Origin: Spirochaetales bacterium
GTDB lineage: Bacteria > Spirochaetota > Spirochaetia > Sphaerochaetales > Sphaerochaetaceae
Direction of reading: 5' to 3'
Assembly (NCBI GenBank): GCA_012523305.1
Contig: JAAYIV010000048.1
Location: 1-59,765 of the forward strand
Length of the DNA stretch: 59,765 bases
In this document: positions 2,445 through 48,299 of the stretch, piece by piece
How positions within the stretch are numbered: the first letter of the stretch is position 1
Layout of the letters: the number at the start of each line of letters is the position of its first letter
Notes under the pieces: generated by a model
Database searches by the model: none
The model's input: the letters and a program-made list of their open reading frames with translations, nothing else
Told to the model about the DNA's origin: nothing
Translations under genes and position numbers: made by a program

Positions 2445-3113
2445 ATGAGACTTAATCCATTAGGGGCTTCATTCTTAAGTTTGTACCTATCAGTCGGTGC
2501 GATTCATATCATCGGATGTTATCGTGAGAATTGGCATATCAAAGCGTATTCAAAACCTTTTCTGATGCCGTTGTTACTCGCTTCATACCTAGCAACAATG
2601 CAAGAAAGAGCTTCATTATTGATTATCATTGCCCTCATATGTGATACGGCCGGCGATGTGTTGCTCATGTTCAGGGACCGCCATGGAATCCGTTTTCTGT
2701 TAATGGGAATGCTATGTTTCATCGGCGGTCATGTCGGTTATTCGATATGGCTATTCAGTTCACATGATACATTCGTCATCGCGATACCGTGGACAATCGG
2801 TTGCGTTGTCGCAGCTTCCCTTTCCTTATGGTTTCGGAAGACGATGATTAAAAGTGGACATCGCTATCACAACATACTATCTGCATATGCATTGTTCATC
2901 GATGCTTTGATTGTCGGTGCATTGTATACGTGGGGAAGCGGGAATTTAATTGGAACACTGCTCTGTCTTGCGGGAGCATTGTTATTCTGCCTATCTGATT
3001 TTCTGATCGCGATGGAAACCATAGGCAGGAAAATAGGAGACAAGACATCAGTAATGATTACCTATATCTTTGCCCAGCTCTTGTTCATCAGCGGATTCGT
3101 ATTGCTTTCCTGA
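2445..3113 (+). CDS. YhhN/TMEM86 family membrane protein (lysoplasmalogenase-like)
   Basis: A polytopic inner-membrane protein of 222 residues with about eight hydrophobic segments. It has the family landmarks YSKPFLMPLLL near the N-terminus, ALICDTAGDVLLMF in the middle and a late LLFCLSDFLIA segment, which carry the conserved acidic residues of YhhN proteins. Characterised relatives (TMEM86A/B and some bacterial YhhN) hydrolyse lysoplasmalogen. That activity would suit an anaerobe, where plasmalogens are common, but it is inferred here. An ATG at 2415 is in frame, but the GGAGG at 2430-2434 lies inside that extension, ten bases before the ATG at 2445, so 2445 is chosen. It is a single gene, divergent from phr. 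Confidence 0.85.
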   Translation: MRLNPLGASFLSLYLSVGAIHIIGCYRENWHIKAYSKPFLMPLLLASYLATMQERASLLIIIALICDTAGDVLLMFRDRHGIRFLLMGMLCFIGGHVGYSIWLFSSHDTFVIAIPWTIGCVVAASLSLWFRKTMIKSGHRYHNILSAYALFIDALIVGALYTWGSGNLIGTLLCLAGALLFCLSDFLIAMETIGRKIGDKTSVMITYIFAQLLFISGFVLLS

Positions 3114-3145
3114 ACGTCTCAATCCATGGAAAATACCTGCAACTA

Positions 3146-3174
3146 TTGCCATTGAGTCTGTCCTCAGTTATAGT
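3146..3174 (+). promoter_or_regulatory. Promoter of the CNNM/CorC-type gene
   Basis: TTGCCA (3146-3151), a 17-base spacer and TATAGT (3169-3174). Each hexamer matches the sigma-70 consensus at five of six positions. The predicted leader is about 90 bases and ends with a good ribosome site before 3270. Confidence 0.55.
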
Positions 3175-31016: not shown

Positions 31017-32294
31017 GTGTCGCTGTATCTTATCACCAAAGATGTAAGGTTACGGGCTTTGGTGAACCGAAGCTTTTCCACACCTGTCTCGGCAGCCATT
31101 TCGATGGAACAGCTTGAAAAAATCCTTTCCATAGCAAGTAATGATCCTTCGCCAATAATCATCATCGACGCTGATACTGCTTTTATCCCGCTTGAAAAAC
31201 TACTTTCATTATTTGTCATGGAAGAAATCCGAGGATTAAAAATTTTCCTCATCCCCCGGATGAAAATGCATCCCCACTGCACCGATGGGATCATGAGAGA
31301 TTGCAATGCCCTGTTTGTTTCAAAACCGGTGACAATGGACAAGTTGATCGATGCGATTATCGAATTTGGAGGATTACATATTCTTTCAAAGCACCTCGCA
31401 AAAGAGACAATCGATTCATATCTCGAACAAAGGACCGACCCTTTCTCTTCTATACTGGTAGGAACATCGAGAACAATACAAACGATCAGGGCGACAATTC
31501 GTCGCCTGGGGCCACATTTTAACTGTGTCCACATCAACGGGGAAACGGGAACAGGAAAAGAAATCGTTGCCCAGCTGCTTTATTTGCACTCAGGTTGTCC
31601 TAAAGCGATGGTAATCATCAATTGCGCTTCATTAAAAGGATCTTTACAACAATCACTGTTATTCGGCCATATAAAAGGAGCTTTCACTGATGCAAAAGAA
31701 CCACGTCAAGGATTGCTGGCACAAGCTCACAACGGCATATTATTTCTTGATGAAATAGAACTGCTCGAACATGAATCGCAGGGACAGTTGCTTCGGTTGT
31801 TGGAAACCGGGAAGTTTCGCCCGATCGGATCAGATTACACTATCAATAGCCATTTCAAATTGATCACCGCGTCAAACATTCCGTTGGAAGTGTTGGTTGA
31901 AAGCGGTAAGTTACGTAAAGATTTCTATAATCGGATCGACCAGTTCACTATTGAGATACCGCCGTTACGCGACCGTATCGAAGATATTCCATTGCTCATC
32001 AACCATAGGCTGGAGCAACTGTCTGAAAAACGAAAACTTGATAACCGGACATTTGAGCTGATGCTTTCATATCCTTGGCCAGGGAATGTACGTGAATTAT
32101 TTCATGAATTGGATACGATAGTATTCTTTAGCAAAGGCTTGGAAACACTTTCATGCAATGCTGTCTTGACGATGAGCCACCTCAGGAGAAACGGTAAAAG
32201 CACCTTCTTAAAAAACCAACGAAAAGTCTCAGAAGCCTATCCATCTTATTCTTGTACTGAAATGCAAGAACCTTGTGGAAAACCTGTGGATTAA
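31017..32294 (+). CDS. NtrC-type AAA+ regulator without DNA-binding domain
   Basis: A 425-residue protein. The N-terminal 130 residues resemble a response-regulator receiver (possible acceptor Asp in IIIIDADTAF, Lys in FVSKPV), but the paired acidic residues near the N-terminus are reduced to one. The AAA+ domain (about 145-375) has Walker A NGETGTGKE, the sigma-54 contact loop as GAFTDA instead of GAFTGA, Walker B GILFLDEIELL and an arginine-rich RLRKDFYNRIDQF-like segment. After PWPGNVRELFHELD only about 60 residues remain, with no Fis-type helix-turn-helix. It may activate sigma-54 RNA polymerase from solution or act only through proteins. The start is GTG, with CGGAG six bases upstream. 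It is a single gene, convergent with murA. Confidence 0.88.
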   Translation: MSLYLITKDVRLRALVNRSFSTPVSAAISMEQLEKILSIASNDPSPIIIIDADTAFIPLEKLLSLFVMEEIRGLKIFLIPRMKMHPHCTDGIMRDCNALFVSKPVTMDKLIDAIIEFGGLHILSKHLAKETIDSYLEQRTDPFSSILVGTSRTIQTIRATIRRLGPHFNCVHINGETGTGKEIVAQLLYLHSGCPKAMVIINCASLKGSLQQSLLFGHIKGAFTDAKEPRQGLLAQAHNGILFLDEIELLEHESQGQLLRLLETGKFRPIGSDYTINSHFKLITASNIPLEVLVESGKLRKDFYNRIDQFTIEIPPLRDRIEDIPLLINHRLEQLSEKRKLDNRTFELMLSYPWPGNVRELFHELDTIVFFSKGLETLSCNAVLTMSHLRRNGKSTFLKNQRKVSEAYPSYSCTEMQEPCGKPVD

Positions 32295-32538
32295 TATGTC
32301 TCTAGGTGGTACATAAACACCAATAAAATGACTATGACAATTATATAAGAATTGCTTAAGAATTAGGTAACTAGGAATTATTTATTTCATTAATAAGCAA
32401 TAAGTTGACATCTTGCCTTATATCTGTTGTTACATCAGTAATTTCAACATGTCCATCACTTGGGAATAACACTAGTAGCTGTTATGTGAAATAACCTGTG
32501 GATAACTTGTGCAATAGTGTGGGAAAGAAGGTGGATTA
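32274..32538 (+). other. DnaA-box-like cluster in the gap between convergent genes
   Basis: All boxes read in the same orientation on the plus strand. TGTGGAAAA (32274-32282) and TGTGGATTA (32285-32293) lie at the very end of the AAA+ gene. A perfect consensus TGTGGATAA is at 32497-32505, TGTGGGAAA at 32518-32526, and a weaker GGTGGATTA at 32530-32538. The 284-base gap 32295-32578 is AT-rich and holds no gene that I can see, only a small inverted repeat (GTTAT/ATAAC near 32480-32495). It is too far from dnaA to be an ordinary dnaA promoter region; it could be a DnaA-titrating or accessory origin site. Confidence 0.5.
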
Positions 32539-32578: not shown

Positions 32579-33874
32579 TTATCGCACTCGAGTAATCAAA
32601 GCCCCAACCCCCAGAAGCTTCTCTTCCAATCGTTCATACCCCCGCTCGATCTGGTAAATATTTTGGATGGTAGAAACACCATCGGCACATAATGCAGCAA
32701 TCACTAGTGCCATTCCGGCCCTGACATCTGGACTTGTCAGATTTGCACCTTTTAAGCGGGACGGACCATTGATCACCGCCCTATGCGGATCGCAAAGGAT
32801 AATATCTGCACCCATCCTTACCAGCCAATCGATAAAGAACATCCGAGTCTCATACATTTTTTCATGGATAAGGATCGTTCCCTTCATTTGGGTTGAAACG
32901 ACGGTAATGATACTAAGCAGGTCTGCCGGGAACCCGGGCCATGGCGCATCGTCAATTTTTGAAGTTCCTCCGTCAAGAGCCCGTTTGATAACCCTTGACT
33001 GAACAGTAGGAACTATGATGGAGTCGGGTCCGTTTTTGATCCACTCTACCCCGATTCGCTTGAATCCCATTTGGATCATCGGAAGGTGTTTGATATTCAC
33101 CCCTTTCAATTCCAATTCTCCTCCGGTAGCCGCGGCAAGCCCGATGTAAGAGCCGACTTCCATGTAATCCGAACCGATCGTGAATGTGCATCCGCTGAGA
33201 GTTGCGACACCTTCAATGGTCAGCAAATTGGATCCTATACCGGAGATGTTTGCACCCATAGCGACTAGCATGTTGCATAAATCCTGTACATGCGGTTCAC
33301 AGGCAGCATTACTGATTACGGTGATACCTTCACAAAGGACCGAAGCCATCAATACATTTTCGGTAGCGGTAACTGAAGCTTCGTCAAGGAAGATCGTAGT
33401 ACCTTTCAGTTTTCCGGCAACAACTTCCAGCCGTCCTTCGGGGGTGATCGTACAGGTACACCCTAACGCTTCCAAACCCAAAAAATGAGTATCAAGACGC
33501 CTATAACCGATCACATCACCGCCAGGAGGTGGAAGTGATACATATTTTGCCCTTACCGCCAAAGGGCCTGCCAATAGGATTGAGGCCCTGATCGAGTCGA
33601 CAATCTCTACCGGTAACGATTCTAGTGGCAGGGAATTTTTACGATTGCCGGTAATCTTAATTTTATGGCGATCCAACGTTTCAATCTCTGACCCCAGAGA
33701 CTCCAGCAACATCAACATCGCCCCCACATCTTCGATTTCCGGAATATTTTTCAAGATGACAGGCTCATCGGTTAACAAGGTCGCAGCAAGACATGGCAAT
33801 GCCGCATTCTTATTACCACTGATTTCTATCGATCCAGAAAGGGGCTTCCCTCCGGTAATCACATATGATGCCAT
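32579..33874 (-). CDS. murA: UDP-N-acetylglucosamine 1-carboxyvinyltransferase
   Basis: The first committed step of peptidoglycan precursor synthesis, transferring enolpyruvate from PEP to UDP-GlcNAc in the cytosol. The 431-residue protein has the N-terminal SGNKNAALPCLAATLL motif with the catalytic-site Lys and Asn, and late DVRAGMALVIAALCADG. The catalytic-loop residue that is Cys115 in E. coli is Asp120 here (PPPGGDVIGYRR; codon 33515-33517). Enzymes with this Cys-to-Asp change stay active but are not alkylated by fosfomycin. The start is leaderless-type and divergent from the PfkB kinase. The gene is convergent with the AAA+ regulator. Confidence 0.97.
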   Translation of the reverse strand: MASYVITGGKPLSGSIEISGNKNAALPCLAATLLTDEPVILKNIPEIEDVGAMLMLLESLGSEIETLDRHKIKITGNRKNSLPLESLPVEIVDSIRASILLAGPLAVRAKYVSLPPPGGDVIGYRRLDTHFLGLEALGCTCTITPEGRLEVVAGKLKGTTIFLDEASVTATENVLMASVLCEGITVISNAACEPHVQDLCNMLVAMGANISGIGSNLLTIEGVATLSGCTFTIGSDYMEVGSYIGLAAATGGELELKGVNIKHLPMIQMGFKRIGVEWIKNGPDSIIVPTVQSRVIKRALDGGTSKIDDAPWPGFPADLLSIITVVSTQMKGTILIHEKMYETRMFFIDWLVRMGADIILCDPHRAVINGPSRLKGANLTSPDVRAGMALVIAALCADGVSTIQNIYQIERGYERLEEKLLGVGALITRVR

Positions 33875-41796: not shown

Positions 41797-42010
41797 GATA
41801 CAACTCCTATTTATATAAATACAGTAGTCGTAGTAATAATAGCATGGAAACTGTGGAAAAATACACTAATTCCATGTTGTCCAAATCAATGAATACTGTA
41901 AAAGTTGTGCAGTACTCGTCCTTTTAATCCACAAGCTTTCCACATTATCCACAGTGCTGTTAGTTATTACCATTCTTTCAACAAGTTGTACAGCAGTTAT
42001 CAACAGGTTA
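41797..42010. other. oriC: Candidate replication origin (oriC) between dnaN and dnaA
   Basis: The gap contains a perfect DnaA box TTATCCACA (41945-41953), near-boxes TAATCCACA (41925-41933), CTTTCCACA (41936-41944) and TTATCAACA (41998-42006) on the plus strand, and TTTTCCACA on the minus strand (41852-41860). Beyond the last box come a 9-base spacer, a trinucleotide run and an AT-only palindrome. The overall arrangement is boxes, spacer, trio, AT-rich unwinding site. It sits beside the point where gene direction flips (dnaA minus, gyrB plus). Confidence 0.7.
41808..41842 (-). other. DnaA-trio-like run and AT-rich palindrome
   Basis: On the plus strand 41822-41842 reads in triplets CAG, TAG, TCG, TAG, TAA, TAA, TAG, so the minus strand reads CTA TTA TTA CTA CGA CTA CTG away from the box TTTTCCACA. 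This matches the DnaA-trio layout known from Bacillus. It runs into TATTTATATAAATA (41808-41821), a perfect AT-only palindrome suited to strand opening, which abuts the dnaN ribosome site. Confidence 0.6.
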
Positions 42011-48202: not shown

Positions 48203-48218
48203 TGTTTCACGTGAAACA
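48203..48218. other. parS: parS centromere site 1
   Basis: TGTTTCACGTGAAACA is a perfect 16-base palindrome matching the bacterial ParB-binding consensus. It is 430 bases from parA and abuts the T-run of the NifU-like terminator. Confidence 0.9.
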
Positions 48219-48275: not shown

Positions 48276-48299
48276 TTCATGTTTCACGTGAAACATGAA
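48276..48299. other. parS: parS centromere site 2
   Basis: The same 16-base core TGTTTCACGTGAAACA (48280-48295) sits here inside a longer perfect palindrome of 24 bases. Its centre is 77 bases from that of site 1. Confidence 0.9.

Follow-up and report, generated by a model that had tools for sequence, protein, structure and literature searches.

The window, by which we mean the whole 59,765-bp stretch analysed here, belongs, as a single contig, to a Sphaerochaetaceae genome of 2.56 Mb in 187 contigs. From the left, its gene order runs through a AAA+ sigma-54-type activator gene (31017..32294, plus strand), a gap, murA (32579..33874, minus strand) and a PfkB-type kinase gene (plus strand); these are followed by metK, jag, yidC, rnpA, recF, dnaN and dnaA, all on the minus strand, and then by gyrB and gyrA on the plus strand. 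The gap thus separates convergent neighbours, and its GC content is locally 0.33, against 0.40-0.47 in 2-kb windows. It holds part of a conserved element, 32274-32538, the rest of which lies in the 3′ end of the AAA+ gene. The distance from this element to the dnaN-dnaA gap (41797..42010, minus strand), which has DnaA boxes of its own and is the proposed true oriC, is 9.3-9.7 kb. On the opposite side of oriC, about 6 kb from it and just 3′ of gyrA, are two perfect parS sites (TGTTTCACGTGAAACA) at 48203-48218 and 48280-48295. No tRNA genes were found in the whole window.

A perfect TGTGGATAA occurs at 32497-32505, so that TTATCCACA reads on the minus strand; this is DnaA box A. One-mismatch boxes at 32274-32282 and 32285-32293 likewise have their TTATCCACA sense on the minus strand. 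The first of these, box B, is TTTTCCACA here and TTATCCACA in most relatives; the second, TAATCCACA, is its upstream partner, 11 bp away, and both fall at the very end of the AAA+ coding sequence, within its final codons. Box A also has an upstream partner at 11 bp, TATTGCACA (32508..32516, minus strand), and further weak boxes on the same strand step outward from it by about 11 bp each: TTTCCCACA at 32518..32526 (offset -21, where class elements commonly have a site at -22) and TAATCCACC at 32530..32538 (offset -33). The weak sites together make a ladder of 10-11 bp steps leading outward from the perfect box. A preliminary description of this DNA had reported a perfect box with near-matches in one orientation, two of them in the final AAA+ codons, in an AT-rich gap between convergent genes about 9.5 kb from the dnaN-dnaA gap, and on all these points it was accurate.

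Over the whole window there is no excess of one-mismatch boxes (20 found, 16.9 expected). The three within 265 bp at this locus were matched by none of 1000 mononucleotide shuffles of the same stretch, and at least three boxes per 265 bp occur elsewhere in the window solely around the dnaN-dnaA gap. The local DnaA boxes are real, far beyond chance, and the decisive evidence for this is their conservation in relatives.

The element is built from two direct doublets, each of which, read in the murA direction, consists of a degenerate box, 2 bp (mostly AG) and then TTATCCACA or a near match. The doublets are 223 bp apart (exactly so in the window, from 32497 to 32274) and bracket, at fixed offsets, an AT-rich central motif and a TATATA. 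The central motif, 30 bp long and common to the class (.tTAA.T..tTatatta.AA..AatTA.at), is at 32380..32409 on the minus strand; a TGNCAACT-like string begins about 96-98 bp past box A. YAANNNNTTR is the core of the IHF consensus, and a string resembling that core, CAACTTATTG (32398..32407, minus strand), lies inside the motif. The TATATA, at 32342..32347, is 65 bp from box B in elements of the 223-bp group and 75 bp from it in a 233-bp group, which places the additional 10 bp of the latter, about one helical turn, between TATATA and box B. Tandem doublets with at most three mismatches occur at four places in the genome: one at each end of the element, one in the dnaN-dnaA gap and a fourth elsewhere.

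The named relatives compared were Sphaerochaeta and other Spirochaetales, in which a same-strand TTATCCACA pair recurs at a fixed distance on the 3′ side of murA. Elements beside murA were taken if they had a box pair, with at most one mismatch in each box, 200-245 bp apart; this gave 45 non-identical elements of Sphaerochaetaceae type, a denominator that accordingly leaves out pairless loci, and 37 of them have a spacing of 221-223 or 231-233 bp. Ten elements with the 223-bp spacing have a mean identity of 44% in their spacers, compared with 86% in the 20-bp doublets. A genome-wide search for TTWTCCACA pairs at such range found matches in 77 of the 139 genomes of the family, representing 16 of the 22 genera. 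The 77 is an upper limit for the element proper, since some matches lie at oriC (L127, L129, L131, L136 and L138, with dnaA and dnaN) or in repeats. The reversed pattern was found in one of the 139 genomes. In the source genome the murA-side locus is the only match.

The same search found no strict pair in six of the 22 family genera, gut Sphaerochaetaceae genera among them. Loss of the boxes in close relatives had been named beforehand as an outcome that would count against the locus; the nearest genera keep the pair, so this objection does not hold for them, although several gut genera of the family have no strict pair. In gut Sphaerochaetaceae, the g16 matches (L127, L129, L136 and L138, for example) have a box pair 204-224 bp apart in the dnaA-dnaN gap itself, so that element-like spacing occurs at origins too.

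Enough flanking sequence was available for 49 of the 80 named loci; in these the element is present at 19 of 19 where murA is near the origin genes and at 2 of 30 otherwise. We do not use this link between presence and murA position as proof, since kinship confounds it. The element is also kept where murA is missing beside it and reg54 and pfkB or jag adjoin. In one relative (L157, genome G123, 2921-3149) the orientation of the element with respect to dnaA and murA is reversed, and there is one extra box on the opposite strand. Another (G022:C1:2222105-2222519) has additional DnaA-box doublets on the gyrB side of the origin, at about 5 kb from the end of the record.

Beyond the family, same-strand TTATCCACA pairs at the element spacing were found in 119 of 394 Spirochaetia genomes, a count that covers related genomes. 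The reversed pattern was found in none of the 394, the same boxes at a spacing of 300-330 bp in one, and the strict pair in two of 178 genomes from other classes of the phylum. A chance origin of the boxes and pairs is dismissed by these counts, by the reversed and 300-330 bp controls and by the shuffles.

Of 90 class stretches with the pair, 14 hold dnaA and are probably origins, and 76 do not; two of the latter (L219 and L231) were removed by eye as repeat- or coding-like, leaving 74 non-origin elements. At -11, a position outside the search pattern, a partner box agreeing at six or more of nine positions accompanies box A in 67 of the 74 and box B in 60, with a background of about two. The neighbours in other families are jag/yidC or unrelated genes, and the element stays. 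A perfect or one-mismatch parS is present inside the spacer, at offset 150-151 from box A, in all six elements fetched from one Treponema-type genus (L251, L252 and L275-L278). No parS was found inside the window element or in most other fetched elements.

The central motif came from a motif search of 90 non-redundant elements, with a log-likelihood of 424 against 90-95 in five shuffles. It falls 70-115 bp from box A in 76 of the 90, compared with 20-32 in shuffles, these counts and positions being taken from the very elements on which the motif was learned. Widths of 20 and 30 were used; at width 14 the search returned a motif that resembled the boxes and had no fixed position, and it was discarded. 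The YAANNNNTTR core is found in 50 of the 90 elements (16 expected) and is weak in Sphaerochaeta proper. Distances from box A to the central motif cluster near 75, 85, 96 and 106 bp. At a period of 10.5 bp their resultant length is 0.79 over all 99 elements, which are related to one another, and 0.45 (p 0.014) over 21 distinct values; by distinct values, phasing was not significant from motif to box B (p 0.26) or from box A to box B (p 0.70). Helical phasing of the element is thus suggested, not proved.

The doublets, their fixed spacing, the central motif, its conservation with theirs and the separation from oriC are shown by the sequence comparison. The element is a conserved non-coding box cluster outside oriC, with a conserved spacing between its boxes and a candidate bending site, and these are among the features by which a locus of the datA or DARS type is judged. 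We therefore regard it as fairly probable, as a reading of the sequence, that the gap is a conserved non-coding DnaA control locus of the datA/DARS/box-cluster kind, separate from oriC, in which a central bend joins two predicted DnaA-bound doublets.

DnaA binding, bending with looping and control of initiation, all of which we infer, might proceed as follows. Each of the two same-direction doublets could by its sequence hold a DnaA dimer. At the central site, about 100 bp from each doublet, a protein of the IHF/Hbb type would bend the DNA, so that the DnaA-bound doublets would meet on the correct helical face. Soon after the origin has been copied, the resulting complex would reduce how much DnaA is available or active for initiation, as datA does, whether by titration or by ATP hydrolysis. 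The genome has one IHF/HU-type gene, whose closest counterparts in the PDB are IHF and then Borrelia Hbb, and the bender is probably this single IHF/Hbb-like protein. No Hda was found above the cut-off in the source genome, which would leave room for DNA-based control. The least secure part of the scheme is that the effect is negative. This is a guess, favoured because in Sphaerochaetaceae replication reaches the locus shortly after leaving the origin; the effect may instead be positive, as with DARS. We count against the control locus that its number of boxes is small for a pure titration sink.

In vivo, E. coli DnaA is described as preferring doublets of this design, made of a degenerate upstream box, 2-3 bp and a perfect downstream box (PMC11317965). 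For datA to work, two or three boxes are reported to be required on either side of a single IHF site, and their spacing to be important (PMC4585315, PMC10950094). For B. subtilis, the joint removal of DnaA-box clusters outside the origin is reported to cause early initiation (PMC5295017).

Among the alternatives, the one that survives best is a site of chromosome organisation or segregation at which DnaA acts together with ParB or a bending protein, initiation control being secondary. The parS in the spacer of all six elements of the Treponema-type genus speaks for it, as does the class-wide central motif. The parS pair of the window is nevertheless outside the element (48203 and 48280) and most other elements have none, and we consider this explanation unlikely.

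DnaA acts as a transcription factor elsewhere, and several relatives have a TTGACA-like string on the plus strand; the element might on these grounds regulate transcription, either of the genes next to it or of a small RNA hidden there. We think this improbable. Convergent neighbours need no promoter between them, no conserved -10 was seen by eye at the right distance, and the neighbours differ between families while the element stays. An RNA gene was also tried as a candidate and rejected, as there was no Rfam match and RNAalifold found no conserved fold on the murA-sense strand of ten aligned 223-bp elements.

Just as improbable, in our estimate, is a purely passive sink for DnaA whose geometry is irrelevant. 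The enrichment of boxes near oriC in E. coli, as presented in PMC12371093, favours titration, but a sink requires neither spacings of 221-223 or 231-233 bp nor a central motif at a fixed position.

The preliminary description had further proposed that the locus might be the true origin or a second origin half. Perfect boxes and AT-rich DNA are in keeping with this, and so is a distance to dnaA of 9-15 kb in Sphaerochaetaceae and one other family of the class. The element has the DnaA boxes of an oriC and lacks the DnaA-trio, the motif of a basal unwinding system that was described for B. subtilis and is predicted in most bacterial origins (PMC8287927). In the dnaN-dnaA gap, both in the window and in relatives, DnaA boxes are followed by a trio run such as CTATTACTACTACTA. 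A box end with its trio run (CTATTATTACTACGACTA, 41825..41856, minus strand) marks the predicted unwinding site of oriC; in a regular-expression scan it was the only trio match in the window, and none fell in the element. The same expression matched 13 of the 15 stretches among L145-L184 that have both dnaA and dnaN.

The element is also found away from the GC-skew turning point and away from dnaA in relatives. The cumulative GC-skew minimum of the window, a measure confounded by gene direction, is near 42-43 kb. In a complete relative (G023) this minimum, at 6.7 kb, is between dnaA and the element (16.1 kb) and nearer to dnaA. Skew at third codon positions (GC3), corrected for gene strand, did not distinguish the 32-kb from the 42-kb region of the window. 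GC skew agrees weakly with the element not being the origin.

Distances between element and dnaA were measured the shorter way round where a contig is near genome length. In two complete Sphaerochaeta-type genomes (G023 and G127) the element is 14.4 kb from the trio, and its distance from dnaA is about 29 kb in G022 and about 9 kb in G123. In other families this distance is 6-15 kb (G184, G163, G251, G259, G183 and G052) or 76-97 kb (G199 and G041), and in complete genomes of Treponema type and others (for example G281, G306, G059, G181, G316, G336, G419, G291, G265, G431 and G374) it is 138-863 kb. Such wandering among relatives argues against the element being half of an origin. We propose from these sequences that oriC is the dnaA-dnaN gap, separate from the element; a true origin at the element, or a bipartite origin shared with the dnaN-dnaA gap, is in view of the trio placement, the dnaA distances and the skew minimum the least probable of the explanations weighed here. 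The datA, DARS or box-cluster idea, also put forward in the preliminary description, stands as a sequence reading, given a locus that is conserved, rigidly spaced and the sole pair in its genome; the origin alternatives offered beside it fall.

The element is probably, to judge from its sequence, a control site of replication initiation not recognised before, rather than an origin. Our search of open-licence PMC papers found no report of it. A broader proposal, which we put forward only tentatively, is that Spirochaetia share an ancestral, usually single-copy switch in which two DnaA dimers would be set face to face by an Hbb/IHF-type bend at the class-wide centre. It would set the level of active DnaA and replace the missing Hda pathway, and for one Treponema-type genus, with parS built in, initiation and segregation would be read at one place.

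To our knowledge, the DNA loci that tune DnaA are understood in detail only in E. coli and, less closely, in B. subtilis. If spirochaetes have a rigid locus of this kind throughout a class, recognised by its spacing and not its sequence, it would demonstrate that loci of the kind can be both ancient and general, and would be the first cis-acting handle on spirochaete cell-cycle control.

Compared with these systems, the element resembles E. coli datA in having non-coding boxes outside oriC and an origin-side location. In datA the IHF site is described as lying between essential boxes (PMC4585315, PMC10950094), and in the element the candidate central site lies between the doublets. Unlike datA, it has two widely separated direct doublets, with a spacing of about 223 bp, around a dyad-like central motif, and it occurs across a class of another phylum; we claim no homology to the E. 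coli loci. DARS1 and DARS2 of E. coli are likewise non-coding DnaA-box loci, DARS2 also being described with an IHF site and a double DnaA box, but the element has no known Fis site and in Sphaerochaetaceae is close to oriC, not mid-replichore. With the DnaA-box clusters of B. subtilis it shares a position outside the origin; those clusters occupy several loci per genome, whereas the element is essentially a single rigid locus in each genome and is conserved throughout the class. Its doublets follow the reported pattern of the E. coli 'double DnaA box', with a degenerate upstream box, 2-3 bp and a perfect downstream box, and differ from such sites in that the two of them form a bracket at a fixed distance around a centre.
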